NCBI RefSeq assembly: GCF_014635865.1
Contig: NZ_BMDQ01000004.1
Span: 1 to 64,000 of the forward strand
Reading direction: 5' to 3'
DNA length: 64,000 nucleotides
Origin: Winogradskyella haliclonae
GTDB taxonomy: Bacteria; Bacteroidota; Bacteroidia; Flavobacteriales; Flavobacteriaceae
Below the pieces are notes generated by a model. It was not told the origin of the DNA. It worked only from the letters and a program-made list of their open reading frames with translations, and searched no databases. Of the stretch, positions 1 through 44,138 are shown one piece after another. The translations under genes were made by a program, and so were the position numbers. The stretch's first letter is position 1. Each line of letters opens with the position of its first letter.

Positions 1-2264
1 GCGGCAAAACTACCTGGTTCTACATCTAAAACCACACCGCTTGCATCATCACTACACACAGTAGCGTCTAAACTCGTAGATAATACTGGCTCAGGACTAA
101 TCGTTACGGTAACGTCGACAGAAGTGCCAATACAATTAGATGTACCGCTCACCGGAACTATCGTATAGATGACATCTATTGGGCCAATACCCATATTAGT
201 ATAAGCATCATCTGCTATTTCATTGGCACCAAATCCTGTACCTACTGTTGGTACACCTGCACTTGCTACCAATCCATTGGTATTGATGGCTGTAATATTG
301 TAGGTAGTTGATGCAACATCACCTACATCTAAATCTAATATTATACCCGTTGGGTCGTCACTACACACGGTAGCATCTAATGTTGAAGACAACACTGGTG
401 TCTCAAAAAAGTTAATAACTATATTATCCGTACTTACACAATTCGTAACATCTTCTGTTACGATAACCGAGTAAACTCCAGAATTTGGTGAACTTATATT
501 AAGCATTGGGTTTGTCTGACCTGGTAGATCTGCTCCATCTAAAGCCCATTGGTATGTAACTGAACCTGCAACGGTAGCATCTAACATTACATCTGGATCA
601 CCAACACACAAATCTTGATCCGGCCCAAGGTCTACATCAAAAGGTCTATTTGTAGTAACTGTAACATCATCGGTTACTACCGTGACATCCCCATTGCAAT
701 TAGTATATGTTACTTGAGCTGTATAAGTTGTTGAAGGATCAGTTGGACAAACCTCAAAACTTGCATCAGTACTTAACACATTACCCATATCGTCTAGCCA
801 TACAAACTCTACAATACTTGGACCAGCAGGTGTAAAACGCCATGCTTCATCTTGTGCAGTCCAATCTTGAGTATTATTTCTTCCTGGCGGAACAAACGCT
901 TCAGTGCCAGCATTATTTTGGATACCTACTGCTTTATCATTGACCCCATTAAAACCATTGCAAAATGGAGCATTTTGTATATAAATATCTATGACATTAG
1001 TAGTTTCATATAAAACTGCCATATGGGTTGCAATTTCTGAAGAACAGCCAAACATTTCAACATTATAAAAACTAACCGCTAAAACTCTATTTGGAGCTGT
1101 TCCAATAATTTCCCATGCAATTTCCTCATTAACTGAAGCAGCCGGATCAATATCGTGTACAGGACTAAATATATTAGCCTCTCCAAAAGTAGGATTAGAA
1201 TTATTCGGAAGCATATTGTTTTGTAGATTCCAACCATTTGTAGTATCAGCTGCATTCACATCAAATCTAATTACCCCATTGGACCCTACCTGAAACTGAG
1301 TTTCAATGCCATTAAAAAAACAAAAATCAAAAGGTAAATCCTCTACATCATCCCATGCGTCATCAATATTTGTATTAACAGAATTAGTCAAACCTTGAAA
1401 AGGAAAGGGTGGAACAAATGGAATACTATTAACATTATATGTACTTGTATCTCCAATATCTAAAAAAGAAGCAGTTAAGGTTGTACATGTTTCATCACAA
1501 GGTATATCTATGTCTGCTCCTGCATCCACCGAAGGATTGCCAGGACTTGTAGAGCCTATTTGTGCTGTTAAATTAATATTGTTTGTACTGGAGCAACCAG
1601 CAGTATCAGTTATCATTAAAGTTACTTCGAATAGACCAGCCATTGTATAGGCATGAGTAACTGATTCTCCCATAGCCGTATTACCGTCGCCAAAATCCCA
1701 AAGGTATACTGCACCAGCACCACCTGTTGAAAATGTACCGCTACCATTAAATGTAATTACTTCATTTTCATCAGCAACTACAACATTGGCCGCAGTTGTT
1801 CCAGGTACAGTACTATCAAGATTAGCAATAATGTTTTGGCAGGGCGTAAAACAACTTATATCTGCGGCCCAACCAGTAGTATTACCAAATCCATTGGTAG
1901 CCCAAACAAAGGTTAAACAACCAGAAGTATTAGCAGAACTAGCCTCTACCAATCCTGGACTATTAGTGCCAGAAAAATCCCCTAGAGGTGGTGCCGTATT
2001 ATCTGCACCATCAAAAATAGATAAAATATCTACCCCATCTTGTGTATTGAACGACGTGAAGTTTATACTCACAGCGTCTCCTGGATTATCAGCACAAATA
2101 GTGATTGTAAAATTTTCATTACTTGAATAATTTCCAGAAGACCCGCCGGAATCTAAGAATGTACCCATACATTGATTAAATGTGCCATCTTGCATTAAAA
2201 GGTCTTGACTAAAACTCTTTATAGAAAAGATAAAAAACGTAAATAATAGTATTTTTTTTAACAT
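1..2264 (-). CDS. Giant secreted CUB/PKD repeat protein, 3' end outside window
   Basis: I translated an open frame with no stop from the ATG at 2264 to the left edge (about 754 residues, C-terminus missing). It starts with a Sec signal peptide ending in SFSQ. Next comes a CUB-like domain (roughly 25-130, with motifs such as SGNYSSNENFTI and DGVDILSIFDG), a PKD domain (around 150-225, with WDFGDGNT and HAYTMAG), a domain with DLPFDFCFFNG and VGSNGVIRFD, and then Ig/PKD-like modules with repeated VCSDDP / VCSDDA units about 100 residues apart. This architecture is typical of flavobacterial T9SS cargo and adhesins, so a type B C-terminal signal is expected beyond the edge, but it is not visible. 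The gene starts 13 bp after the stop of the small secreted protein at 2278-2730, so the two are probably cotranscribed. Ligand unknown. Confidence 0.85.
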   Translation of the reverse strand, partial: MLKKILLFTFFIFSIKSFSQDLLMQDGTFNQCMGTFLDSGGSSGNYSSNENFTITICADNPGDAVSINFTSFNTQDGVDILSIFDGADNTAPPLGDFSGTNSPGLVEASSANTSGCLTFVWATNGFGNTTGWAADISCFTPCQNIIANLDSTVPGTTAANVVVADENEVITFNGSGTFSTGGAGAVYLWDFGDGNTAMGESVTHAYTMAGLFEVTLMITDTAGCSSTNNINLTAQIGSTSPGNPSVDAGADIDIPCDETCTTLTASFLDIGDTSTYNVNSIPFVPPFPFQGLTNSVNTNIDDAWDDVEDLPFDFCFFNGIETQFQVGSNGVIRFDVNAADTTNGWNLQNNMLPNNSNPTFGEANIFSPVHDIDPAASVNEEIAWEIIGTAPNRVLAVSFYNVEMFGCSSEIATHMAVLYETTNVIDIYIQNAPFCNGFNGVNDKAVGIQNNAGTEAFVPPGRNNTQDWTAQDEAWRFTPAGPSIVEFVWLDDMGNVLSTDASFEVCPTDPSTTYTAQVTYTNCNGDVTVVTDDVTVTTNRPFDVDLGPDQDLCVGDPDVMLDATVAGSVTYQWALDGADLPGQTNPMLNISSPNSGVYSVIVTEDVTNCVSTDNIVINFFETPVLSSTLDATVCSDDPTGIILDLDVGDVASTTYNITAINTNGLVASAGVPTVGTGFGANEIADDAYTNMGIGPIDVIYTIVPVSGTSNCIGTSVDVTVTISPEPVLSTSLDATVCSDDASGVVLDVEPGSFA

Positions 2265-32634: not shown

Positions 32635-33510
32635 TTACTTTCTATGCTGCTCTCTAGCTAATAAGGTATTTTTTAGTAGCATAGCTATGGTCATAGGACC
32701 AACACCTCCCGGAACTGGTGTAATATAACTTGCCTTTTTGCTTACGTTTTCAAAATCTACATCACCTGTAATATAATACCCTTTTTCAGAATCGTCGGCT
32801 ACCCTTGTAATTCCGACATCGATAATTATGGCATCATCTTTAACCATTTCTGCTTTCAAAAAATTAGGGACTCCTAATGCCGAAATAATAATATCTGCTT
32901 GAGATGTAATTTGAGTGATATTTTTGGTATGGCTATGAGTTAAGGTTACTGTTGAGTTCCCCGGAAACCCTTTACGTCCCATAAGAATACTCATTGGGCG
33001 ACCAACAATATGAGAACGTCCAATAACTACGGTATGCTTTCCTTTTGTCTCAACGCCATAACGGTCTAATAATTCTAAAATACCAAAAGGTGTTGCTGGG
33101 ATAAATGTTGACATATCTAATGCCATTTTCCCAAAATTAGTTGGATGAAAACCATCTACATCTTTATCAGGATTTACAGCCATTAATATTTTCTGAGTAT
33201 TAATTTGTGGCGGTAATGGCAATTGAATGATAAAACCATCAATATCATCGTCTTGATTTAACTCTTCAATTTTATCTAAAAGTTCTATCTCGCTAGTGGT
33301 ATTAGACATGCGTACCATGGTAGACTCAAAACCAACACGCTCACAAGCTCTAACTTTACTACCAACATAAGTTAAACTCGCACCATCATTACCAACAATT
33401 ACTGCTGCTAAGTGTGGTACTTTTTCACCATCGGCTTTCATTTTATCAACTTCTGCCTTGATTTCGTTTTTTATGTCGTTACTGGTTTTTCTACCGTCTA
33501 AGATTGTCAT
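32635..33510 (-). CDS. folD: Methylenetetrahydrofolate dehydrogenase / cyclohydrolase
   Basis: Bifunctional enzyme interconverting 5,10-methylene-THF, methenyl-THF and 10-formyl-THF. 291 residues, full length. Signature motifs: YVGSKVRACERVGFES near residue 50 with the active-site lysine, PLPPQINTQKIL, DGFHPTNFG, GRSHIVGRPMSILM and PGGVGPMTIAMLL. It lies 26 bp downstream of ffh, so the two likely form one transcript. The pairing with folE at the left of the window reflects pathway, not position. Confidence 0.97.
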   Translation of the reverse strand: MTILDGRKTSNDIKNEIKAEVDKMKADGEKVPHLAAVIVGNDGASLTYVGSKVRACERVGFESTMVRMSNTTSEIELLDKIEELNQDDDIDGFIIQLPLPPQINTQKILMAVNPDKDVDGFHPTNFGKMALDMSTFIPATPFGILELLDRYGVETKGKHTVVIGRSHIVGRPMSILMGRKGFPGNSTVTLTHSHTKNITQITSQADIIISALGVPNFLKAEMVKDDAIIIDVGITRVADDSEKGYYITGDVDFENVSKKASYITPVPGGVGPMTIAMLLKNTLLAREQHRK

Positions 33511-33536
33511 GTTGTTGTGTGGTTGTTAGAGTTATA

Positions 33537-34868
33537 TTAACGTGGCATATTTTTCATCATTTGCATCATACGTTTTCCGCCGCCGCCTTGCATCATCTTC
33601 ATCATTTTGCTCATTTGCGTAAACTGCTTTAGCAACTGGTTGACTTCTTGTACAGAGGTACCTGAACCTTTTGCAATTCGTTTTTTACGGCTTGCATTCA
33701 TTAATCCTGGGTTGGAACGTTCTGTTGGTGTCATAGAATGAATAATAGCTTCAATACCTTTAAAAGCATCATCATCAATATCTACGTCTTTCATCATTTT
33801 TCCTGCACCCGGTATCATACCTATTAAATCTTTCATGTTACCCATTTTCTTGATTTGCTGAATCTGCTTTAAGAAATCATCAAATCCAAATTGGTTTTTG
33901 GCAATCTTCTTCTGAAGTTTTCTTGCCTCTTGCTCATCAAACTGCTCTTGAGCACGTTCAACAAGAGAAACAACATCTCCCATTCCTAAAATACGATCTG
34001 CCATACGTGATGGATAGAAGACATCGATAGCTTCCATCTTCTCGCCAGTACCAATAAATTTAATCGGTTTATTGACTACAGATTTAATAGAAATTGCAGC
34101 ACCACCTCGAGTATCACCATCAAGCTTAGTAAGAATAACACCATCAAAATTTAAGATATCATTAAAGGCTTTTGCTGTATTTACAGCATCTTGACCTGTC
34201 ATCGAATCTACTACAAACAATGTTTCTTGTGGAGTAATTGCTTTATGAATATTAGATATCTCAGTCATCATAGCTTCATCAACAGCCAAACGACCTGCGG
34301 TATCTATAATAACCACATTATGTCCATTAGCCTTTGCATGAGCAATACCAGCCTGAGAAATGGCTACTGGATCATTATTATCTCTATCACTGTATACCTC
34401 AACACCAATTTGCTCACCAACTACATGCAACTGGTCAATCGCTGCAGGACGATAAACATCACAAGCGACTAATAAAGGTTTCTTAGTTTTTTTGTTTTTT
34501 AGATAATTAGCAAGTTTACCGGAAAAGGTGGTCTTACCAGAACCTTGTAGTCCTGACATTAAAATAACGCTTGGAGTACCAGAAAGATTAAGACCTTCTG
34601 CATCACCACCCATAAGTTCAGTTAGCTCGTCCTTAACAATTTTAACCATTAATTGCCCTGGCTGAAGCGTTGTCAATACATTTTGACCTAAGGCTTTTTC
34701 CTTAACAGTATTGGTGAATTGTTTAGCTATTTTAAAGTTAACATCGGCATCTAAAAGCGCACGTCTTACTTCTTTAAGCGTCTCAGCAACATTTACTTCT
34801 GTAATGCTACCATGACCTTTTAATACATGTAGCGCTTTATCTAACTTATCACTTAAATTATTGAACAT
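33537..34868 (-). CDS. ffh: Signal recognition particle protein Ffh
   Basis: GTPase that binds signal sequences and 4.5S RNA and delivers ribosomes to FtsY and the Sec translocon. 443 residues. The N domain (about 1-90) is followed by the G domain with GLQGSGKTTFSGKLA, DVYRPAAIDQL, DTAGR and TKLDGDTRGGAA. The methionine-rich M domain ends in MMKMMQGGGGKRMMQMM. An exact TAnnTTTG box lies about 27 bp upstream of the ATG. Confidence 0.98.
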   Translation of the reverse strand: MFNNLSDKLDKALHVLKGHGSITEVNVAETLKEVRRALLDADVNFKIAKQFTNTVKEKALGQNVLTTLQPGQLMVKIVKDELTELMGGDAEGLNLSGTPSVILMSGLQGSGKTTFSGKLANYLKNKKTKKPLLVACDVYRPAAIDQLHVVGEQIGVEVYSDRDNNDPVAISQAGIAHAKANGHNVVIIDTAGRLAVDEAMMTEISNIHKAITPQETLFVVDSMTGQDAVNTAKAFNDILNFDGVILTKLDGDTRGGAAISIKSVVNKPIKFIGTGEKMEAIDVFYPSRMADRILGMGDVVSLVERAQEQFDEQEARKLQKKIAKNQFGFDDFLKQIQQIKKMGNMKDLIGMIPGAGKMMKDVDIDDDAFKGIEAIIHSMTPTERSNPGLMNASRKKRIAKGSGTSVQEVNQLLKQFTQMSKMMKMMQGGGGKRMMQMMKNMPR

Positions 34869-34894
34869 AATCTTTATTGGTATTTAACAAGTGG

Positions 34895-34902
34895 CAAATT
34901 TA
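34895..34902 (-). promoter_or_regulatory. ffh promoter -7 box (TAAATTTG)
   Basis: Exact TAnnTTTG on the minus strand, 26 nt before the ffh ATG. Confidence 0.5.
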
Positions 34903-35007
34903 AGAATTTACAAGCGATAAATGAAGTTGTTACTGATACAATTTTTCAACTTAAAAAAAGTAAAAAAATCATATATAACACGGTAAAACTAGAAGATATC
35001 AAAACTA

Positions 35008-35038
35008 GAAAAGAGTCACTTTTAAAGTGACTCTTTTC
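35008..35038 (-). terminator. Hairpin terminator after the repeat lipoprotein
   Basis: A 15-bp perfect stem (GAAAAGAGTCACTTT and its complement) around a single base, about 40 bp after the stop of the gene at 35079. Confidence 0.88.
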
Positions 35039-35078
35039 AACTACTAACTAAATAAACCGTAAGCGGATGTTTATCAGT

Positions 35079-37355
35079 TTAATCACATATTTTATCTAAT
35101 GTCATTTGGTTATCTCCCATATGGAAAATCAATTGTTCTCCTGTACATTCAACAACAGTCCACACACCTGAAATAGCTTGAATATCTGGTGCAGAAATCC
35201 CATCGAAAGTAACATCTACTCCTCCACTATTATTTGTTTCAGTTAACCAAGTTCCAGTAACCGTTTCGTTTGTTGTTACATTTGTAATCAACAATTCTTG
35301 AGCATCTAAAAACGTTAATCTATAATCTATTAAATTATCATCTCCATTTAATTCTGTGACTTTCCACTCACAGTTCATTAAGATACCATCTACATCACCT
35401 TCTGTACAATCTCCAGGATTAGTACAATCTTCTAACTTTAATTGCAATTCAAAAACTTCATAAGTATCTCCAACCTCAACTCTAACATAAATTGTTTGAG
35501 GTGCACTCGTGTTTACAAAATACTCTGGGTCTGCAATAGGATTTGTATCTGCATCGGCATCAGCTAATGACGTATGATAGGTTACGACATCTACAAATGG
35601 TGTACAATTTGAATATGCAATGGTTAAGTCAAAGGTTTCGTAACCATCATTACCTTCATCACAAAGCTCAATTACAGCATCGAAACTTGCAAAACATTCA
35701 AACGGATTTGGCGCATTACAGTCTTCGACAATTAACTCTACCGGATAAATTAATTTTTGTTCAGGATTGTTTACTAATGCCACTTTTACGTATACGGTTT
35801 GAGGGTTTGAGACATTGGTATATGCTGTAGCGCCTTCTAAGAAATCTGAATTATTTTCTGCACCTTCAAAAGTGGTATGGAATGTAATTGCAACTGACGC
35901 TCCTGGATTATCACAAGCTGGTACAGCTTCATAGATATTAAATTGCGCATATCCATCATTATCATCATCGCATTTTACTAATTCTACACCTTCTTCTGGA
36001 TAACATTCAAAAGGATTGTCATTAAAACATTCTTGTTCTAAATGAAGAATATTATCGCCATTAGAGAGACCATAAAACCCTTCATGACACTCGATAACTT
36101 CCCATACTCCAGAAAGCACATCATAATTTCCTGTGAGATTTAACACTAAAGTCAATGTATCAGAATCTACACCTACATTCCAAGTTCCAACCTCAACAAA
36201 CTCATTGTTTACATAAACTTTTACGGTTCCGTCTTCAGTAAATACAAACTTATTAGCCAAGTCATTGACAAGATTACTTCCTGCAAACCAGTAACATTCT
36301 ATTAAGTCCTGAGATAAATCATCAGCTGAACAGTTTAAATCTGTCTCGCAGTACTGCTCAATCAACATAGTTTGGTCGTTCTTTGTAAGATACAACTCGT
36401 CATTATCGCATTCTACAATTTTCCAATCTCCTCCAAAATCTTCAAACTCTGTTGCTAATACTAAATAAACTTCCTCTCCTTCTTCAACAACTTCCCAAGT
36501 ATTGCCTTCAGAAGACACCTGATTATCATCTATGATGATATCGAAAGTGAAATCCTCGTTAAACACAAACTCAAAATCTTCGAACTCAGGAAAACTAGAA
36601 TAGGCTTCTATTACCCATTTACATTCTTTTAATGAAGCTTTAATTTCATCAACATCACAGTTTTCATAATCGTCATCATCGCAATCGTCTCCAACTGCTT
36701 CTATAGCGTTAGACAATTCTTCGTTAGTGTTTACAGTAATCGTATTGCCATCAGCATACTCTAACGTGACAGGGAAATTCAGGGCTACAAGATTAGCTTG
36801 GTCATCATCTAAGCCTTCTAAAAAGTCATGAAGCGCTTCATTACTTTCTATAGTTACTGTATCAATAATAACAAAATCTGAGTTAAGTACAGAAAATGAT
36901 ATTGGATAAACAAAATCCACACATTCTATAGCGTCATTATCCTCAATACAATCTTCTAATAAAGCTTCAAGTTGATCTTGATTTTCGATGACTGTTTCAG
37001 TATAATCTGCAGAAATAATTGTTATAGGAAAAACAAATTCAGGAATTTCGCCTTCTAGCTCTTCTAACAAGTCTTCTAATTCATCTAACCCTTCTTCGTT
37101 CTGTATAGTAATGGTAATATTGCCAACAATAACTGTAACAGGCAATTCCACCGAAAAACAGCTTGAATTATCTAAAACATTATCATCAGAAACTGCATTT
37201 GCTGAAGTTCTGAGCATAAGATTAGACAAGGTAGAATTTGGTATTATAGCTTCTTGTTCATCTGGATTAATTATTTCTACAGATTCATCTTGACATGAGG
37301 CAAAAAAGAGTGCTATCAAGAACAATAAAACGTAGGATTTAAAGTAGGATTTCAT
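35079..37355 (-). CDS. Modular repeat surface lipoprotein (758 aa)
   Basis: Strongly acidic lipoprotein: signal peptide with lipobox FFASC (C21), then three kinds of repeats. A: four short units at about 70-100, 109-136, 150-181 and 194-224, pattern (L/F/Y)P(V/I)T followed by an Asn-Glu/Gln-x-x-L helix. B: three lipocalin-like units at about 237-336, 347-443 and 655-757, starting with ECxW-like and containing W(K/E/T)(I/V)VEC-like ends. C: two units at 460-546 and 562-644, starting CDDDNDGYAQFNI and CDEGNDGYETFDL, with FHTTF/YHTSL and TVYVKV. Unit C is the same type as the nine repeats in the protein at 2924-7267. There is no T9SS signal. The upstream TTG at 37394 is rejected since the ATG precedes the signal peptide. 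It is divergent from the ECF sigma gene across 98 bp. Ligand unknown. Confidence 0.92.
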   Translation of the reverse strand: MKSYFKSYVLLFLIALFFASCQDESVEIINPDEQEAIIPNSTLSNLMLRTSANAVSDDNVLDNSSCFSVELPVTVIVGNITITIQNEEGLDELEDLLEELEGEIPEFVFPITIISADYTETVIENQDQLEALLEDCIEDNDAIECVDFVYPISFSVLNSDFVIIDTVTIESNEALHDFLEGLDDDQANLVALNFPVTLEYADGNTITVNTNEELSNAIEAVGDDCDDDDYENCDVDEIKASLKECKWVIEAYSSFPEFEDFEFVFNEDFTFDIIIDDNQVSSEGNTWEVVEEGEEVYLVLATEFEDFGGDWKIVECDNDELYLTKNDQTMLIEQYCETDLNCSADDLSQDLIECYWFAGSNLVNDLANKFVFTEDGTVKVYVNNEFVEVGTWNVGVDSDTLTLVLNLTGNYDVLSGVWEVIECHEGFYGLSNGDNILHLEQECFNDNPFECYPEEGVELVKCDDDNDGYAQFNIYEAVPACDNPGASVAITFHTTFEGAENNSDFLEGATAYTNVSNPQTVYVKVALVNNPEQKLIYPVELIVEDCNAPNPFECFASFDAVIELCDEGNDGYETFDLTIAYSNCTPFVDVVTYHTSLADADADTNPIADPEYFVNTSAPQTIYVRVEVGDTYEVFELQLKLEDCTNPGDCTEGDVDGILMNCEWKVTELNGDDNLIDYRLTFLDAQELLITNVTTNETVTGTWLTETNNSGGVDVTFDGISAPDIQAISGVWTVVECTGEQLIFHMGDNQMTLDKICD

Positions 37356-37453
37356 GATAAATTGGTTTTTATGATTTCTTATAAAACAAGTCAATCTTAT
37401 TTATTCCTACCTTAAGTTTTAATTTTTTTAAATTTACTGCAATAGAAAACCCT

Positions 37454-37969
37454 ATGTCTAAACCATTACACCAAAATAGTTGTGAAGAACATATTTATTC
37501 TGCGCTCTTTAAAAAGCACTCAAAAAATTTACATGACTTCTTATATTACAAATTTGGTTCTTATCTAAATCCTAAAGATAAAGTGCAAGATGCCTTTATA
37601 AAATTATGGGATAATTGTGCAAAAGTCCCTCCAGAAAAGGCCAAGAGTTTTTTATTTACTACAGCAAACAATTTGATGCTTAATGCTGTTGCACACCAAA
37701 AAGTTGTGCTAAAACATCATCAAAAGCCTCAAAAAAGTAGTACTAACGAATCGCCAGAATTTGTATTAGAAGAAAAGCAATACAGCGAAAAACTACAAAA
37801 TGCATTAGAAAAATTAACTGAAGCTCAACGCGTGGCTTTTATGATGAATCGTGTTGAAGGTAAACGCTTTAAAGAAATTGCAGAACTGCTAGACATATCT
37901 GTAAAAGCTGTTGAAAAACGAATTTATGGTGCACTAAAAAAACTTAGAGAAGATATAAAAGAATTATAA
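37454..37969 (+). CDS. ECF-type RNA polymerase sigma factor
   Basis: 171 residues, FecI-like. Region 2 has FKKHSKNLHDFLYYKF and KVQDAFIKLWDN. Region 4 has ALEKLTEAQRVAFMMNRVEG, FKEIAELLDISVKAVEKRI and LKKLREDIKEL, a helix-turn-helix for -35 recognition. It heads the cassette ECF sigma - FecR - receptor, with the anti-sigma beginning about 50 bp downstream. The family directs transcription of its own receptor locus on extracellular signals. No exact TAnnTTTG box is evident upstream, which may mean autoregulation from an ECF-type promoter. Confidence 0.95.
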   Translation: MSKPLHQNSCEEHIYSALFKKHSKNLHDFLYYKFGSYLNPKDKVQDAFIKLWDNCAKVPPEKAKSFLFTTANNLMLNAVAHQKVVLKHHQKPQKSSTNESPEFVLEEKQYSEKLQNALEKLTEAQRVAFMMNRVEGKRFKEIAELLDISVKAVEKRIYGALKKLREDIKEL

Positions 37970-38020
37970 TGTAGGTAGGGATTTTTAAAACTTGCATGTT
38001 ATATAAGTAGAAAAGATAAA

Positions 38021-38908
38021 ATGGAAAGAGAAGAACTCATAAAAAAATGGCTTGACCATAATCTTAACTCTGAGGAACAGAAAGCCTTTGAAGAGTTAGA
38101 TGATTATGCCGATTTACTTAAGCTTTCTAAATCACTAGAAGATTTTAAATCGCCTGATTATAGTATAGATTATGAGTACGACAATGTTAAATCTCGCTTA
38201 AAACCTAAGGCTTCTAACAATTGGGTACGACCATTACTTAAAATTGCAGCAGTATTGCTTATTAGCTTTAGTATCTTCTATTACAACTCTACTCTAGATA
38301 CCGAGGTAAAAACACTCGTAGCAGAAGATATAACAATTAGTTTACCAGATGCTTCTACCGTTAACCTCAATGCCCAATCTACTATAGTATATAATAAAAA
38401 TTCATGGACAGATAAACGTGAAGTCTCTCTTGATGGGGAAGCCTTCTTTAGTGTCGCCGAAGGTTCAAAATTTGATGTTATTACATCTGATGGAAAAATT
38501 AGTGTTTTAGGTACTCAATTTAATGTTATACAGCGTCTAAACTATTTTGAAGTGACATGCTTTGAAGGTTTAGTTGCTGTTAACTACAAATCAAAATCGC
38601 TAAAGCTTAACCCCGGAAATCGCTTTGTAGTTATTGACGGTATTATTAAAAATGAAAAAGAAAATAGAACGCAACCTAGTTGGTTATCTAATGAAACTTC
38701 ATTTGCAAGTGCACCTTTAAAATATGTATTGGATGAATTAGAAAGACAATATGATATTTCTGTAGATGCAAGTAAATTAGATGGCCAACAGTTGTTTTCT
38801 GGTAGCTTTACTCATGATAACTTAGATTTGGCATTAAAATCAATAACCTTACCTTTAGGTATAACTTACACTAAAAGTAATTCTGTTATTGTTTTAAATG
38901 GTGAATAA
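38021..38908 (+). CDS. FecR-type anti-sigma factor
   Basis: 295 residues in three parts. A short cytosolic N-terminus (about 1-65, sigma-binding) is followed by one membrane segment (LLKIAAVLLISFSIFYY, about 70-88). The periplasmic FecR domain (about 95-190) has ISLPDASTVNLNAQSTI, VSLDGEAFFSVAEG and VLGTQFNVI. The end is a DUF4974 domain (about 220-295), with APLKYVLDELERQYDISV and LDLALKSITLPLGI, which has an STN-like fold. It overlaps the receptor gene by 11 bp. It would transduce a signal from the outer-membrane receptor to the sigma factor at 37454. Confidence 0.95.
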   Translation: MEREELIKKWLDHNLNSEEQKAFEELDDYADLLKLSKSLEDFKSPDYSIDYEYDNVKSRLKPKASNNWVRPLLKIAAVLLISFSIFYYNSTLDTEVKTLVAEDITISLPDASTVNLNAQSTIVYNKNSWTDKREVSLDGEAFFSVAEGSKFDVITSDGKISVLGTQFNVIQRLNYFEVTCFEGLVAVNYKSKSLKLNPGNRFVVIDGIIKNEKENRTQPSWLSNETSFASAPLKYVLDELERQYDISVDASKLDGQQLFSGSFTHDNLDLALKSITLPLGITYTKSNSVIVLNGE

Positions 38909-41201
38909 TTTCAAAAGTTTTTTACTCATCCTTCTATTTGGAGTCTCTTTGCATGGTTATGCCCAAACAGATAACCAGAAGAAACCCCTTTCAGAAATAT
39001 TAAAACAACTTGAAGCCAAATTTGACATCAGATTTTCTTATGCTGATGAAACTGTAAAGACAATTAATCTATCGTTTAATGATGATTTAAGTTTAGAGGA
39101 GGCATTACTATACCTAGAAGAAAAAACAGACTTAACATTCAATAGACTAAATAGTCGATTTATTTCTGTAGAACAGCGAAAGCCAAATTACAATTCGAGT
39201 CATAACAATTTGCAGCAGCTCGACGAAGTCTTTATACAAAACTATCTTACTAAAGGTTTAGCAAAGACTATTAATGGTAAGATTGAAATCACGCCGCAAA
39301 AATTTGGGATACTTCCTGGCTTAAGTGAGCCAGATATCCTACAAACTATACAAACGCTTCCAGGAATTATTAGCGTTGATGAGCGCATATCTAATATTAA
39401 TATTAGAGGTGGCACTAACGACCAAAACCTTATCCTATACGAAGGGATCAGAATGTATCAGACTGGTCATTTTTTTGGCCTTATTTCGGCATTTAATCCT
39501 TATCTCACCGAAAAGGTTGATGTCACCATTAATGGCACAAGAGCCAAATACGGATCTGGGGTGTCAAGTGCTATTAGCATAGAGAACTCTAACGAAATTG
39601 GAGATAAATCTGAATCCGGCGCTGGATTTAACTTATTAAGTGTTGATGGTTTCTCTAAATTTCAACTATCAAAAAAAACTGAATTGCAGTTATCTGCTCG
39701 ACGCTCATATACTGATGCCCTATTAACACCAACTTATGACACGTATTTAGAACGTATTTTTAATACTACTCAATTAGAGAATCTATACGCAACTCCAGGT
39801 TCTGATTTACAACAAAATGAGCGTTTCTTTTTTTACGATGCAAGTCTTAAATTTTTATATGATATTAATAAAAACTCATCAATAAGAGCAAACCTACTCA
39901 CTATTTTTAATCGTCTAGACTACGACATTATTTCCCCTAATGATAGTTTAGTAACAACTGAAAGCCAGCTAAGTCAAAGAAGTTATGCCGGTAACATAAA
40001 TTATAATTATAAGTGGTCAGAGTCTACAAATATGTCTGCCCAATTAAGCTATTCTAACTACCGTTTATTTGGTGAAAACGCTTTAACAACTCAAGAGTTG
40101 ACCCAAGAAAATGAAGTTGTTGATGTAGGCGCACGCGTAGATTTTTTAAGTGTCGTTGATAAAAATCTTAATCTTAATTTTGGTTACCAGTTTAATGAAG
40201 TTGGTGTATCTAATCTCGAGGATGTTTCCAATCCTCGTTTTAGAAGTTTTGTAAAAGAAGTCATAAGAACTCAAGGCATATATACTGAGGCAGAATTTAC
40301 TTCTAATTCAAAAAATACTTATGGAAGAATTGGATTAAGAGGTAATTATCTTGATAAGTTTAGTACTGTTTTATTTGAGCCTAGGTTTGTTTTCTCACAA
40401 AAATTCTTGAATTATTTTAGACTAGAGCTCCTAGGCGAAGTAAAAAATCAATCTATCAATCAAATTATAGATTTACAGCAAGATTTTTTCGGTATTGAAA
40501 AACGTAGATGGCAATTAGCTAATACCAGTGATGTTCCTATTTTAAAAAGTAATCAATTTTCTGTTGGATTAAATTACAAAAAGAAAGGCTGGTTGATTAG
40601 CGCTGAAGGTTATATTAAAAATGTTGATGGTGTAAGTACGCGCTCTCAGGGTTTTCAAAATCAATTTCAATTGGCAAGAGCTATTGGAGATTATAGTATA
40701 AAAGGTATAGATATCTTATTTAACAAACAGTTTAAAAACTTTGGAGCTTGGCTAAGCTATTCCTATAGTAAAAATGATTACGAGTTTGAATTTTTAAATA
40801 ATAACCAAGCCTTCCCTAATAATCTAGACATAACTCATATTCTTAATTTCTCTACCACATACGAAATTGAAAATTTAAAACTCTCGGCAGGTGTAAATTG
40901 GCATTCTGGTAGGCCTTATACGGTGCCATCCATGAGTCAACCAAATAAAGATACCATAGCATTCGACACCCCAAATGCTGAACGTTTACCCAGCTATTTA
41001 AGAGCAGATGTCTCAGCACGTTATAGTTTTCAGGTTGCTGATGATGTGTTCGGAGAAGTGGGTGCATCTGTATTGAATTTGCTCGACAGAGAAAATGTTA
41101 TCAATAGATTCTACACTTTAAACTCTAACAGTCAGATTATTGAGAATAATGAACTTGCTTTAGGGTTAACCCCTAATTTTAGCCTTAGATTAAAATTTTA
41201 A
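38898..41201 (+). CDS. STN-containing TonB-dependent outer-membrane receptor
   Basis: 767 residues. The signal peptide (LLILLFGVSLHGYAQ) is followed by a secretin/TonB N-terminal (STN) domain (about 28-95, LSEILKQLEAKFDIRFSYAD, SLEEALLYLEEKT), which contacts the FecR protein in this family. The plug (about 120-235) has LPGLSEPDILQTIQTLPGI, ISNINIRGGTNDQNLILYEG and GTRAKYGSGVSS. The rest is a beta barrel ending in the terminal phenylalanine of LRLKF. No CarboxypepD_reg domain lies between STN and plug. There is no SusD-like gene beside it, so a siderophore, heme, vitamin or peptide ligand is as likely as a glycan. The start overlaps the FecR end by 11 bp, so translation is coupled. Confidence 0.95.
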   Translation: MVNNFKSFLLILLFGVSLHGYAQTDNQKKPLSEILKQLEAKFDIRFSYADETVKTINLSFNDDLSLEEALLYLEEKTDLTFNRLNSRFISVEQRKPNYNSSHNNLQQLDEVFIQNYLTKGLAKTINGKIEITPQKFGILPGLSEPDILQTIQTLPGIISVDERISNINIRGGTNDQNLILYEGIRMYQTGHFFGLISAFNPYLTEKVDVTINGTRAKYGSGVSSAISIENSNEIGDKSESGAGFNLLSVDGFSKFQLSKKTELQLSARRSYTDALLTPTYDTYLERIFNTTQLENLYATPGSDLQQNERFFFYDASLKFLYDINKNSSIRANLLTIFNRLDYDIISPNDSLVTTESQLSQRSYAGNINYNYKWSESTNMSAQLSYSNYRLFGENALTTQELTQENEVVDVGARVDFLSVVDKNLNLNFGYQFNEVGVSNLEDVSNPRFRSFVKEVIRTQGIYTEAEFTSNSKNTYGRIGLRGNYLDKFSTVLFEPRFVFSQKFLNYFRLELLGEVKNQSINQIIDLQQDFFGIEKRRWQLANTSDVPILKSNQFSVGLNYKKKGWLISAEGYIKNVDGVSTRSQGFQNQFQLARAIGDYSIKGIDILFNKQFKNFGAWLSYSYSKNDYEFEFLNNNQAFPNNLDITHILNFSTTYEIENLKLSAGVNWHSGRPYTVPSMSQPNKDTIAFDTPNAERLPSYLRADVSARYSFQVADDVFGEVGASVLNLLDRENVINRFYTLNSNSQIIENNELALGLTPNFSLRLKF

Positions 41202-41264
41202 TGATAGAGGTTTTTAATACTCTCTTAAATAATTAACTTTTAAAAATTCATTTTTGAGTAGGTC

Positions 41265-41294
41265 ATAAAAGACCGTCAATTGACGGTCTTTTAT
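41265..41294 (+). terminator. Terminator of the sigma-FecR-receptor unit
   Basis: Perfect 30-bp palindrome with core GACCGTCAATTGACGGTC flanked by A/T runs, 63 bp after the receptor stop. Confidence 0.92.
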
Positions 41295-41360
41295 TTTGTA
41301 TACAATTACAACTAAAAATCATACTTTTATAATAGAATTTTTAATCCAAACACTACTATT

Positions 41361-41903
41361 ATGCTTCCTACAGAATTGCAAAAATTAAAATACCCTATTG
41401 GCAAATTTCAACCACCGGAAATTATCTCAAAAGGTCAAAAAGAAAAATGGATAATGGATATCGAAAATTTTCCAGATTCAGTAGAGGACACAACCAAAAA
41501 TCTATCTAATGCAGAGTTAAACTACAGATATAGGCCAGATGGATGGACCATTAAACAAGTGGTACATCATTGTGCTGACAGCCATATAAATAGCATTATA
41601 AGGTTCAAATTAGCATTAACAGAAGATACACCAACCATAAGACCCTATTTTGAAAATCACTGGGCTGAACTTGTAGATTACGAGCATGATATTAAAACAG
41701 CATTATCCATTTTAAAGGGCATACACGCTAAGTTAGGTATATTGCTCAGAGGCTTGTCTGATGAAGACCTAAAACTAAAATTTATTCATCCAGAACATGG
41801 CAAAAGTTTTACTCTAGAAGAAACCATTGGAACGTATGCATGGCATAGCAACCATCATTTGGCACACATAAAACAAGCCTTAAAATACAAGGGAGAATTC
41901 TAA
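41361..41903 (+). CDS. YfiT/DinB-like bacillithiol transferase family protein
   Basis: 180 residues, four-helix DinB-like fold. Metal-binding histidines stand in VVHHCADSH and in HSNHHLAHI. N-terminal motifs YPIGKFQPPE and the central DGWTIKQ are those of the YfiT (bacillithiol/thiol transferase) family. Members conjugate or transfer thiols to xenobiotics; the thiol used here is not shown. It converges with argS 4 bp away with no terminator between, so read-through is possible. Confidence 0.9.
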   Translation: MLPTELQKLKYPIGKFQPPEIISKGQKEKWIMDIENFPDSVEDTTKNLSNAELNYRYRPDGWTIKQVVHHCADSHINSIIRFKLALTEDTPTIRPYFENHWAELVDYEHDIKTALSILKGIHAKLGILLRGLSDEDLKLKFIHPEHGKSFTLEETIGTYAWHSNHHLAHIKQALKYKGEF

Positions 41904-41907
41904 TACC

Positions 41908-43680
41908 TTACATACGATTAGGAACTTCAATACCAAGCACATTAAATGCACTCTTAATCGTCTCTCCTACTTTTCTAGATAAGGCCACTCTAAACGATTT
42001 TTCATTATCAGAATCAGCGCCAAGTATAGATACATTCTGATAGAAAGAATTAAAATCTTTCACCAAATCGTAAGTATAATTTGCAATTAAAGCAGGGCTA
42101 TGATGTGCTGCAGCATTTTGAATGACTTCAGGAAATTGTTCCAACTGTTTTAACAACTGCTTTTCTTTTTCATGAAGAGATATATCTGATATTTTAAAAT
42201 CTTCAGATGAGGATTTTCTTAAAATAGACTGAATTCTAGCATAGGTATATTGTATAAACGGCCCTGTATTTCCTTGAAAATCGATAGACTCTTTTGGATC
42301 AAACAATATTCTCTTTTTAGGATCGACCTTTAATATGTAATATTTTAATGCTCCTAATCCAATGGTTTTATAAAGCGATTTCTTTTCATCTTCAGAATAG
42401 TCATCTAACTTTCCTAATTCTTTAGAAATCTCCTCGGCTGTGTTTGCCATTTCTTCAATTAAATCATCGGCATCTACAACGGTGCCTTCTCTACTTTTCA
42501 TTTTACCACTTGGTAGATCTACCATACCGTAGCTTAGATGAAATAGGTTTTTGGCCCAATCAAAACCAAGCTTTTTCAGTATTAAAAACAATACTTTAAA
42601 ATGATAATCTTGCTCATTACCAACAGTATACACCATACCACCTACATCTGGATAATCCTTGATACGCTGTATAGCCGTTCCTATATCTTGCGTCATGTAA
42701 ACCGCTGTGCCATCAGCACGAAGTACAATCTTTCTATCCAAACCATCTTCAGTTAAGTCACACCAAACCGAACCATCTTCATCCTTTTCAAAAACACCAG
42801 ATTTTAAGCCTTCTGCAATAAACTCTTTTCCTAATAAGTAGGTCTGACTTTCATAATAATACTTATCAAAGTCTACACCTATGTTTTTATAAGTGGCATC
42901 AAAACCTTCATAAACCCATCCATTCATTTTCTTCCAAAGTGCAACAACATCTTCATCTCCTGCTTCCCATTTACGCAGCATCTCTTGTGCTTCAAGTAAA
43001 ATAGGCGCATTCTTCTTAGCATCTTCTTCAGATTGACCGCTTGCAATTAATGTCTTTATGTCTTCTTTATAGGCTTTATCAAACTTCACATAATAATTAC
43101 CCACCAACTTATCACCTTTTAGACCAGTAGATTCGGGAGTTTCATTATTACCAAAACGTTGCCAAGCCAACATACTTTTGCAAATGTGTATGCCTCTATC
43201 GTTGATAATTTGGGTTTTATAAACCTTTTTACCTGAAGCTTTTAAAATCTCAGCAACACTATAACCTAAAAGCACGTTACGCACATGACCTAAATGCAAA
43301 GGTTTGTTTGTGTTTGGTGAAGAATACTCTACCATCACTGCTTTATCATCTTTGACTTCAGAAATGCCATAATCACCATTATGCTTTATAGAATTAAAGA
43401 ATTCTAGATAATAGGCATCTTCAATTTCAATGTTCAAAAATCCTTTTACAACATTAAAAGCTTTAACTAAAGACACATTATCTACTAAATACTGTCCTAT
43501 TTGCTCACCAATAATTGCAGGATTTCCTTTTACGACACGTAACATCGGAAAAACCACAACAGTAATATCTCCAGCAAACTCTTTCCTTGTTGCTTGAAAT
43601 TCAACAGATTGCAAATCAGCTTCAAATAAAGATTTTACAGCAGCTTTTACATTTAATTCTAATGTATCTTGAAGATTCAT
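41908..43680 (-). CDS. argS: Arginine--tRNA ligase
   Basis: 590 residues, class I synthetase charging tRNA-Arg. N-terminal Add-1 domain, HIGH motif HLGH in NKPLHLGHVRN, the typical ArgRS lack of a lysine-containing KMSKS (here GKMKSREGTVV), and the DALR C-terminal domain with YTYARIQSILRK and YTYDLVKDFNSFYQ. An in-frame TTG at 43713 would add 11 residues, but this TTG is part of an exact TAnnTTTG promoter box at 43711-43718. The ATG at 43680 is therefore used. Confidence 0.97.
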   Translation of the reverse strand: MNLQDTLELNVKAAVKSLFEADLQSVEFQATRKEFAGDITVVVFPMLRVVKGNPAIIGEQIGQYLVDNVSLVKAFNVVKGFLNIEIEDAYYLEFFNSIKHNGDYGISEVKDDKAVMVEYSSPNTNKPLHLGHVRNVLLGYSVAEILKASGKKVYKTQIINDRGIHICKSMLAWQRFGNNETPESTGLKGDKLVGNYYVKFDKAYKEDIKTLIASGQSEEDAKKNAPILLEAQEMLRKWEAGDEDVVALWKKMNGWVYEGFDATYKNIGVDFDKYYYESQTYLLGKEFIAEGLKSGVFEKDEDGSVWCDLTEDGLDRKIVLRADGTAVYMTQDIGTAIQRIKDYPDVGGMVYTVGNEQDYHFKVLFLILKKLGFDWAKNLFHLSYGMVDLPSGKMKSREGTVVDADDLIEEMANTAEEISKELGKLDDYSEDEKKSLYKTIGLGALKYYILKVDPKKRILFDPKESIDFQGNTGPFIQYTYARIQSILRKSSSEDFKISDISLHEKEKQLLKQLEQFPEVIQNAAAHHSPALIANYTYDLVKDFNSFYQNVSILGADSDNEKSFRVALSRKVGETIKSAFNVLGIEVPNRM

Positions 43681-44138
43681 AAAATGGCTTTTTACTTCTT
43701 TAAACGCCAGCAAAGGTAGACCTTTTTATTATTTTATAATAAATCAAAGTGCGGTTTAATTTTTATACTTAAACAACCAATGAAATGCAATTAAATTTAG
43801 TAATGAAGTAGGATTGCAAATTTCAAATTATTAAATTAACATTTTGGTAATCAGTAATTTATATTAAAAGTGCATTTCATCGATAAAAGTGTAGTTCTAC
43901 CAAGAATTTTACCTTTAATCGATTGGTCTGTTTTTTTGAAAATTTCAACGTTCACTTTGTCTGATTTTTTGGTCGTAAAACTTAAAAATTAGCAAATCCA
44001 ATTGCATTTGACCATTTTTGGGCTGCTATTAATTGAATTGTTAGAAGCATTGCAAAATGCGTGATAACACATCTTTCCTATCCCTCTCAGAAAGTTGGCA
44101 AACCACAATATAAAACTGTGCCCTAAAGTTAATGCTTT
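43681..44138. other. 458-bp gap before the TPR kinase; possible gene relic
   Basis: Apart from the argS promoter the region has no long frame. On the plus strand at about 43995-44060, a short frame reads HLTIFGLLLIELLEALQNA before a TGA, like a hydrophobic gene tail with no upstream body. ATGAAATGCA at 43780-43789 is matched in reverse by TGCATTTCAT at 43871-43880. The stretch may hold regulatory DNA of the kinase, the end of a decayed gene, or both. Confidence 0.4.
43711..43718 (-). promoter_or_regulatory. argS promoter -7 box (TACCTTTG)
   Basis: Exact TAnnTTTG on the minus strand, 30 nt before the ATG at 43680. Confidence 0.55.

Follow-up and report, generated by a model that had tools for sequence, protein, structure and literature searches.

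A divergent surface-lipoprotein gene as a candidate fourth member of FecI/FecR/FecA-type signalling units in Flavobacteriaceae

The window analysed here is the whole 64,000-nt stretch of Winogradskyella haliclonae DNA (contig NZ_BMDQ01000004.1, positions 1 to 64,000). Within it, four genes form a unit, with ffh/folD at one end and a DinB-like gene plus argS at the other (Table 1). A lipoprotein gene is separated by 98 bp (37356–37453) from the divergently transcribed gene for an ECF sigma factor, which is followed by fecR and by a TonB-dependent receptor/transducer gene that overlaps fecR by 11 bp (38898–38908); these coordinates, the overlap and the divergent gap are as the initial annotation gave them. 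If translation began instead at the TTG at 37394, the lipoprotein would be 13 aa longer. Hairpins resembling intrinsic terminators lie 3' of the lipoprotein and receptor genes, and the scan for such structures gave 4 sites in the stretch versus 2.5 in shuffles. No SusD match was found by Pfam in the eight genes of 32635 to 43713, as had been stated initially, and no glycan enzyme or iron gene occurs among the adjacent genes examined. Rfam gave no match at E 0.1 in 34800–38100.

Table 1. Features of the four-gene unit and of related loci; residue numbers refer to the window lipoprotein
Feature	Location	Strand	Details
Lipoprotein gene	35079..37355	-	ATG at 37355, stop codon ends 35079; 758 aa
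ECF sigma gene	37454..37969	+	171 aa
fecR	38021..38908	+	295 aa, FecR-type anti-sigma/regulator
TonB-dependent receptor/transducer gene	38898..41201	+	767 aa
Predicted ECF-sigma site, lipoprotein gene	37379..37413	-	GTAGG-N17-TGTTTTATA, score 33.0, class-1 matrix
Predicted ECF-sigma site, fecR and receptor	37972..38006	+	GTAGG-N17-TGTTATATA, score 35.6, in training set
Intrinsic-terminator-like hairpin 3' of lipoprotein gene	35038-35008	-	
Intrinsic-terminator-like hairpin 3' of receptor gene	41265-41294	+	
Signal peptide and lipobox	C21		then Q-D-E
A repeats (4)	about residues 62-225		
B modules (3)	residues 236-338, 343-443, 652-758		lipocalin-like (predicted models)
C modules (2)	residues 446-549, 550-645		between second and third B; Ig-like (predicted models)
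Retained site and downstream stretch, lipoprotein-less loci	L184:7289-7487		equivalents in L085, L088, L190, L191, L195, L196, L207, L209, L216, L219, L234, L240
Second small lipoprotein, examples	L295:6084-6563, L136:3290-3760, L130:3836-4318		

The cassette proteins have recognizable domains. The sigma factor matches Sigma70_r2 (7.8e-9) and Sigma70_r4_2 (9.5e-17) in Pfam, and the FecR protein matches FecR (4.2e-17) and, C-terminally, FecR_C (2.7e-9), with a hydrophobic stretch near residues 71–88 as read from the sequence. The receptor has an N-terminal FecR_C/STN-like domain (5.3e-8), a Plug and a barrel. Among 13 receptors of class 1 (classes are defined below), FecR_C and Plug were each found in 13, PF07660 STN in 7 and the barrel model in 7; none has a CarboxypepD_reg domain at E 0.01, which bears out the earlier description of a receptor with an STN-like domain and without CarboxypepD_reg. 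One receptor of class c3x matches CarbopepD_reg_2 at 2.2e-7, 1 bit under the cut-off. Judged by these domains, the cassette is of the FecI/FecR/FecA-type cell-surface signalling kind and is ordinary in kind. Profile comparison of the receptor with the PDB gave no relative at E 0.001, the closest receptor among named genomes is that of a Winogradskyella MAG (70%), and a plasmid search returned 10 records with distant receptors, each at <60% identity. A second, distant receptor occurs in the window's own genome (G000:C1:45449-47773; 32% identity over nearly its full length). At 18 class-1 loci (e.g., L071:9292-10572) a gene family begins at a median of 42 nt 3' of the receptor gene, and the L071 member, the only one examined, matches PagL, a lipid A deacylase.

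The lipoprotein is the less familiar component. It matches no Pfam family over the cut-off, nothing in NCBIfam at E 1 and no PDB sequence at E 1, and none of 29 lipoproteins, the window's included, has a SusD match in Pfam, by which measure it is not SusD-like. The three repeat families described in the initial annotation are real by profile comparison across 29 relatives, with four A repeats (A2 versus A4, E 7e-9), three B modules (to 3e-32) and two C modules (to 3e-29). Cross-matches also occur, of B profiles with segments in the C positions (to 8e-36) and, weakly, of C1 with B (to 4e-5), and they are probably due to other modules that occupy the same columns in relatives. Structure prediction for families B and C had been proposed as a check. 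The model of B residues 657–756 aligns with 4qrl (Z 11.8, rmsd 1.9, 92 aligned) and that of residues 234–337 with 4nw4 (Z 10.8, rmsd 2.9, 100 aligned), so that on the predicted models the B modules have a lipocalin-like beta-barrel fold; Pfam matches of B-type relatives are weak (DUF4923 at 1.8e-4 in one member, GH43_C at 6.8e-4 in one small lipoprotein). Single C modules give Ig-like structural matches of modest Z (about 5–6). Each A repeat is βββα in the predicted model. For the A domain, Foldseek gave nothing at E 0.001 and the best VIA-align Z was 4.6 over 47 residues; this lack of a relative is no proof of a new fold because the mean pLDDT of the A domain modelled alone is 67.9. Foldseek matches of the whole lipoprotein model are of low TM-score. 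A set of 25 diverse A domains shows no variation at four cysteines (C21, C66, C136 and C145), and a search of the window's own genome gave a single match to the A-domain lipoprotein.

A putative export signal points to the cell surface. Surface-export signals listed for Bacteroidetes in PMC5080379 include QKDDE, SDDFE and SDDDD, and the C-Q-D-E that begins at the lipobox cysteine of the window lipoprotein, a polar residue followed by two acidic ones, is close to these signals and supports the surface location initially proposed. At least two acidic residues occur at +3 to +6 in 142/176 relatives, a count made with a script that miscalled some lipoboxes. On this basis the lipoprotein is very likely surface-exposed.

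To place the unit in a wider context, 209 loci were assembled, of which L305 was dropped for having no receptor, which left 208 loci with 195 distinct receptors. These were classed by tree distance and receptor length (c1, 128; c2, 33; c3, 9; c3x, 24; c4, 1). All c1 loci were picked by receptor, as were 18 c2, 3 c3 and 23 c3x loci; the other 15 c2, 6 c3 and 1 c3x loci were picked by lipoprotein. A divergent lipoprotein gene adjoins the sigma gene in 110/124 c1 loci (after four without a sigma gene in the examined stretch were set aside) and in 24/24 c3x loci, and it does so in 33/33 c2 and 9/9 c3 loci, counts that are biased by the partial picking by lipoprotein. From the side of the lipoprotein, sigma, FecR and receptor adjoin in 20/20 loci, 19 of them divergent and 1 (L336, from another family) collinear; in this sample, 9 came as best matches in class-level genomes and 11 were picked by hand from the family list. 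The genome search suggested at the outset thus finds the lipoprotein in the company of this receptor clade from both directions.

The initial annotation had held that its case would fail if close relatives carried the cassette without the lipoprotein or if the lipoprotein occurred in unrelated contexts. The former was seen at 14/124 class-1 loci; the latter was hardly seen, with sigma, FecR and receptor present at 42/43 loci with a strong lipoprotein match. The exception, L305, comes from an 83% complete genome and has only the divergent lipoprotein and sigma genes, the 4.3 kb examined beyond sigma containing neither FecR nor receptor. By eye, an integrase-like ORF occupies the expected fecR/receptor position there (G001:C1:287225-295429), as if a mobile element had arrived 3' of sigma. 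Seven further lipoproteins of about 350 aa (L273–L279) match the A domain partially, and the cassette is absent in 7/7 of the stretches examined; their host genomes are seven of the group whose class-1 cassette is without a lipoprotein.

Co-inheritance is also evident at the genome level. Among 299 Flavobacteriaceae genomes, 208 have the receptor (E 1e-60) and 190 the A-domain lipoprotein (E 1e-30), with both in 188, the receptor only in 20, the lipoprotein only in 2 and neither in 89; the counts are uncorrected for common descent, and receptors of other classes also pass the threshold used. In 19/20 receptor-only genomes the best receptor E is weaker than 1e-152, and some lipoprotein-bearing genomes also have receptors weaker than this value. 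Across 295 Bacteroidia genomes, an A-domain match at E 1e-8 was found in 10 (the window's own, 7 of the same family and 2 of other families). The A-domain tree tracks receptor class, with 110/110 c1 members in one clade (support 0.935), 32/33 c2 members and 7/9 c3 members together; c3x is not a single clade. The single c4 locus has no A-domain match. The divergent position is taken there by an ORF of 558 aa that matches the last B module weakly, and GTAGGG-type elements precede both this ORF and fecR. Relatives of the collinear L336 type gave 10 further weak matches in the 295 Bacteroidia genomes, 2/10 of them beside a cassette. Another lipoprotein type, with the motif DYGDGTCD, lies collinearly before sigma-FecR-receptor in the distant Bacteroidota loci L350 and L353, and the L336 lipoprotein joins a DYGDGTCD-like motif with A-like repeats. 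An A-domain lipoprotein gene divergent from an ECF sigma-FecR-STN/TonB receptor cassette is a conserved four-gene unit of Flavobacteriaceae.

Such conservation could arise if the genes were mere neighbours, held in synteny by ffh, folD and argS without common regulation, and the ffh neighbourhood is found in 53/110 lipoprotein-bearing class-1 loci and argS in 57 class-1 loci. Class c2, however, has different neighbours yet retains the pairing, the cassette accompanies the lipoprotein in the 20/20 lipoprotein-centred loci, including the collinear one from another family, and both genes have class-specific promoter sites in common, all of which make this explanation very improbable.

The promoter evidence concerns a bipartite element, GTAGG-N17-TGTT, that precedes the lipoprotein gene as well as fecR. 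A regular expression applied to 61 class-1 loci found it before fecR in 60/61 and before the lipoprotein gene in 57/61. Among the misses, a contig end truncates L066, L122 has CTAGG for GTAGG, and L082 and L111 have a lipoprotein-strand site just past the limits, with the sigma start called too early. Weight matrices were then built for classes c1, c2 and c3 from fecR upstream regions alone (110 loci for class 1, the window's fecR site included) and applied to lipoprotein upstream regions. The same-class matrix beats all 40 shuffles at the lipoprotein gene in 110/110 c1, 33/33 c2 and 9/9 c3 loci, with mean best scores of 29.3, 19.5 and 27.6 versus opposite-strand means of -26.1, -10.1 and -1.1, respectively. 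Wrong-class matrices give lower means (2.3 and 3.9 for c1, 2.2 and 12.6 for c2, -17.4 and -1.4 for c3). They nevertheless often score above shuffles, since all classes share the TGTT half: c1 regions do so with the c2 matrix in 61/110 and the c3 matrix in 31/110, c2 regions with the c1 matrix in 27/33 and the c3 matrix in 25/33, and c3 regions with the c2 matrix in 3/9 and the c1 matrix in 0/9. The c2 lipoprotein site is weaker (median 15.8) than the fecR training sites (40.2). At both promoters the first half-site switches with class (c1, GTAGGA; c2, CAGGAG; c3, TGGGAC), and we infer that this half-site is the −35 box. Nine loci have a sigma-fecR distance of 427–1107 bp, with an inserted ORF in eight, and the site still lies close before fecR.

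The sigma gene itself appears to be controlled differently. No copy of the ECF site lies upstream of the window sigma gene on its own strand, and c1 sigma upstream regions have no site (median score -23.9, maximum -7.1). A TAnnTTTG box before sigma is modestly enriched (c1, 18/110 versus 10.5 shuffled; c3x, 16/24 versus 2.3), and the housekeeping two-box form shows no enrichment over shuffles. On this site map, active sigma would make FecR and receptor together with the lipoprotein, and not sigma itself. Conserved adjacency and the class-changing promoter element strongly support, in silico, the initial proposal that the lipoprotein is a target of the system, and we consider with high confidence that it is a direct target of the neighbouring sigma factor.

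A genome-wide regulon sought with the strict pattern was rejected, as the window's own genome has 9 matches versus 4 for the backwards control and many arise by chance. Some intergenic pattern matches in this genome precede other lipoprotein or secreted-protein genes, and one site copy (G000:C1:1692707-1692735, at L162) lies 13 nt before a lipoprotein gene with a Fib_succ_major domain. A search for a common 3'UTR element gave two patterns found in just 3 and 7 of 107 c1 loci, which is not general.

The 14 class-1 loci without an adjacent lipoprotein gene comprise a clade of twelve, with named members mainly from Psychroserpens, together with an Olleya MAG (L240) and another MAG (L236). The promoter site is retained in 13/14 of them, with matrix scores of 13.8–35.2, and ends 164–202 nt before the ffh start in 10/13 and 269–296 nt before it in the other three (Table 1). 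Between the retained site and ffh there is no ORF of ≥15 codons in 11/13 loci and one of 26–27 codons in the other two. A conserved stretch and a terminator-like hairpin lie 3' of the site and are followed by a separate conserved block before ffh, and a sigma-driven short RNA made from the retained site is possible; Rfam gave no match at E 0.1 for L184 7200–7600. A search of 12 genomes of this group, with that of L191 left out, found full A-domain lipoproteins elsewhere in 9/12, and the eight such loci that were examined all lie in c2 or c3 cassettes. The remaining 3/12 (G361, G364 and G366) have only partial, weaker A-domain matches and no strong one, and some genomes of the group may be incomplete assemblies. 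The receptors remain conserved, with 2/184 conserved columns lost in the 12-member clade versus 0–1 in six lipoprotein-bearing clades, which are partly nested; this gives no clear indication that an interaction surface was lost. Lipoprotein-less cassettes thus persist, and the lipoprotein is no obligate partner. This observation bears on a possible regulatory or signalling role of the lipoprotein, in which the receptor would read its surface amount or export and so act as a sensor of the lipoprotein or of surface status. A predicted sigma site that is the same as that of fecR and the receptor would close such a feedback loop, but lipoprotein-less loci retain sigma, FecR and receptor, and we consider this role unlikely.

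Modules are also reused within the unit. At 29 loci (10 c2, 8 c3, 8 c3x and 3 c1) a second small lipoprotein gene lies 3' of the main one, at a median gap of 28 nt. All 23 small lipoproteins that pass the motif filter match B-module profiles and none of the shuffled controls does, and a B module occurs in 60/60 c2, c3 and c3x lipoprotein tails, six proteins of ≤300 aa having been left out. The presence of B modules both fused and free within one unit supports a joint function.

The lipoprotein could also be purely an output of the system, an adhesin or coat protein at the surface, under sigma control, that never touches the receptor and works independently of its transport. Its distal part varies among relatives, with a Laminin_G_3 match in 6/29, segments of open frames of 1000–2500 aa elsewhere match the C-module region, and the gene is lost in some loci where the receptor is still conserved. 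Against this, the variation spares the A domain and at least one B module, and a free adhesin need not stay by one receptor class as the A-domain tree indicates. We regard a pure output role as a credible but less probable explanation.

The reading that we prefer, and consider reasonably likely, is that of a FecI/FecR/FecA-type unit with a dedicated, sigma-driven surface ligand-capture lipoprotein as its fourth gene. Gene order, co-inheritance and the common promoter site were obtained in silico; in what follows we infer that sigma recognises the sites and that the lipoprotein is surface-exposed, captures ligand and contacts the receptor. The sigma gene would be transcribed from another kind of promoter, and FecR would retain the sigma factor until the periplasmic STN-like domain of the receptor reports an extracellular ligand. 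The freed sigma factor would then fire two divergent promoters that bear the same class-specific site, of which one would yield FecR and more receptor as feedback and the other the surface lipoprotein. Once exported to the outer face of the outer membrane, the lipoprotein would most likely capture ligand for the receptor by means of lipocalin-like, Ig-like or lectin-like modules on a constant A domain. The lipocalin-like modules may bind a small ligand, which by analogy may be handed to the receptor as in BtuB-BtuG. We put at about even the chance that the lipoprotein contacts the receptor or captures ligand for it; the partner in place of SusD suggested initially would be such a protein. A broader proposition, which we put forward tentatively and which is rather doubtful when taken as a whole, is that A-domain lipoprotein and receptor would form a new class of pair, of TonB receptor and surface lipoprotein, that has no relation to SusCD. 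It would have an unseen A-repeat fold, interchangeable ligand modules, an own ECF sigma factor and −35 box for each class, several orthogonal copies that can share one cell and, in the Psychroserpens clade, a promoter whose lipoprotein gene is gone and whose only product now is a short terminated RNA.

These results provide a regulatory context for an unnamed lipoprotein family that is found in 190/299 of the sampled Flavobacteriaceae genomes, and target promoters are predicted for three paralogous groups of ECF sigma factors with matched half-sites. Sigma specificity, ligand and lipoprotein function become testable in culturable marine bacteria. The searches made found no paper that describes the locus and no experiment on the lipoprotein, and the surface lipoprotein as a fourth member is, as far as found, new. 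The unit also suggests a wider output of FecIRA-type signalling in Bacteroidota, one that can take in a surface lipoprotein besides the receptor.

Several known systems resemble the unit in part. In the Bacteroidetes glycan loci with SusC/SusD or under ECF/anti-sigma control, too, a surface lipoprotein accompanies the TonB receptor, and sigma/anti-sigma control is found in some; these are the points of likeness. Unlike them, the present unit has no SusD domain, its class-1 receptors are without CarboxypepD_reg and no glycan enzyme is found among the adjacent genes examined. Lid lipoproteins of the BtuG type have a beta-propeller fold; the models here show lipocalin-like and Ig-like modules together with A repeats that gave no convincing fold match, and the present pair has its own ECF system alongside. 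In the BtuB-BtuG pair of Bacteroides, a vitamin B12 receptor works with a lid lipoprotein, as summarised in PMC10404256, and the likeness lies in the suggested role of a surface lipoprotein that would pass ligand to a TonB receptor. As in the P. aeruginosa Fox system outlined in PMC11637429, the signalling domain of the transducer would act on the C-terminal domain of a FecR-type anti-sigma factor and the receptor gene is sigma-dependent, here by prediction; a surface lipoprotein target is present here and is unmentioned in the abstract of that paper. With E. coli FecI/FecR/FecA the unit shares an ECF sigma factor, a FecR-type regulator and a TonB receptor with an N-terminal signalling domain. 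In FecIRA systems this receptor domain acts on the C-terminal domain of FecR and ligand leads to active sigma (as summarised in PMC9249621 and PMC11637429). In E. coli, sigma-70 controls fecIR according to the summary in PMC9249621, and in both systems the sigma gene is not under its own sigma factor, here as judged from predicted sites. Unlike E. coli Fec, a predicted ECF site also lies before fecR, which would place sigma and FecR in separate transcription units, no iron gene occurs among the adjacent genes examined, and a surface lipoprotein is the divergent target.
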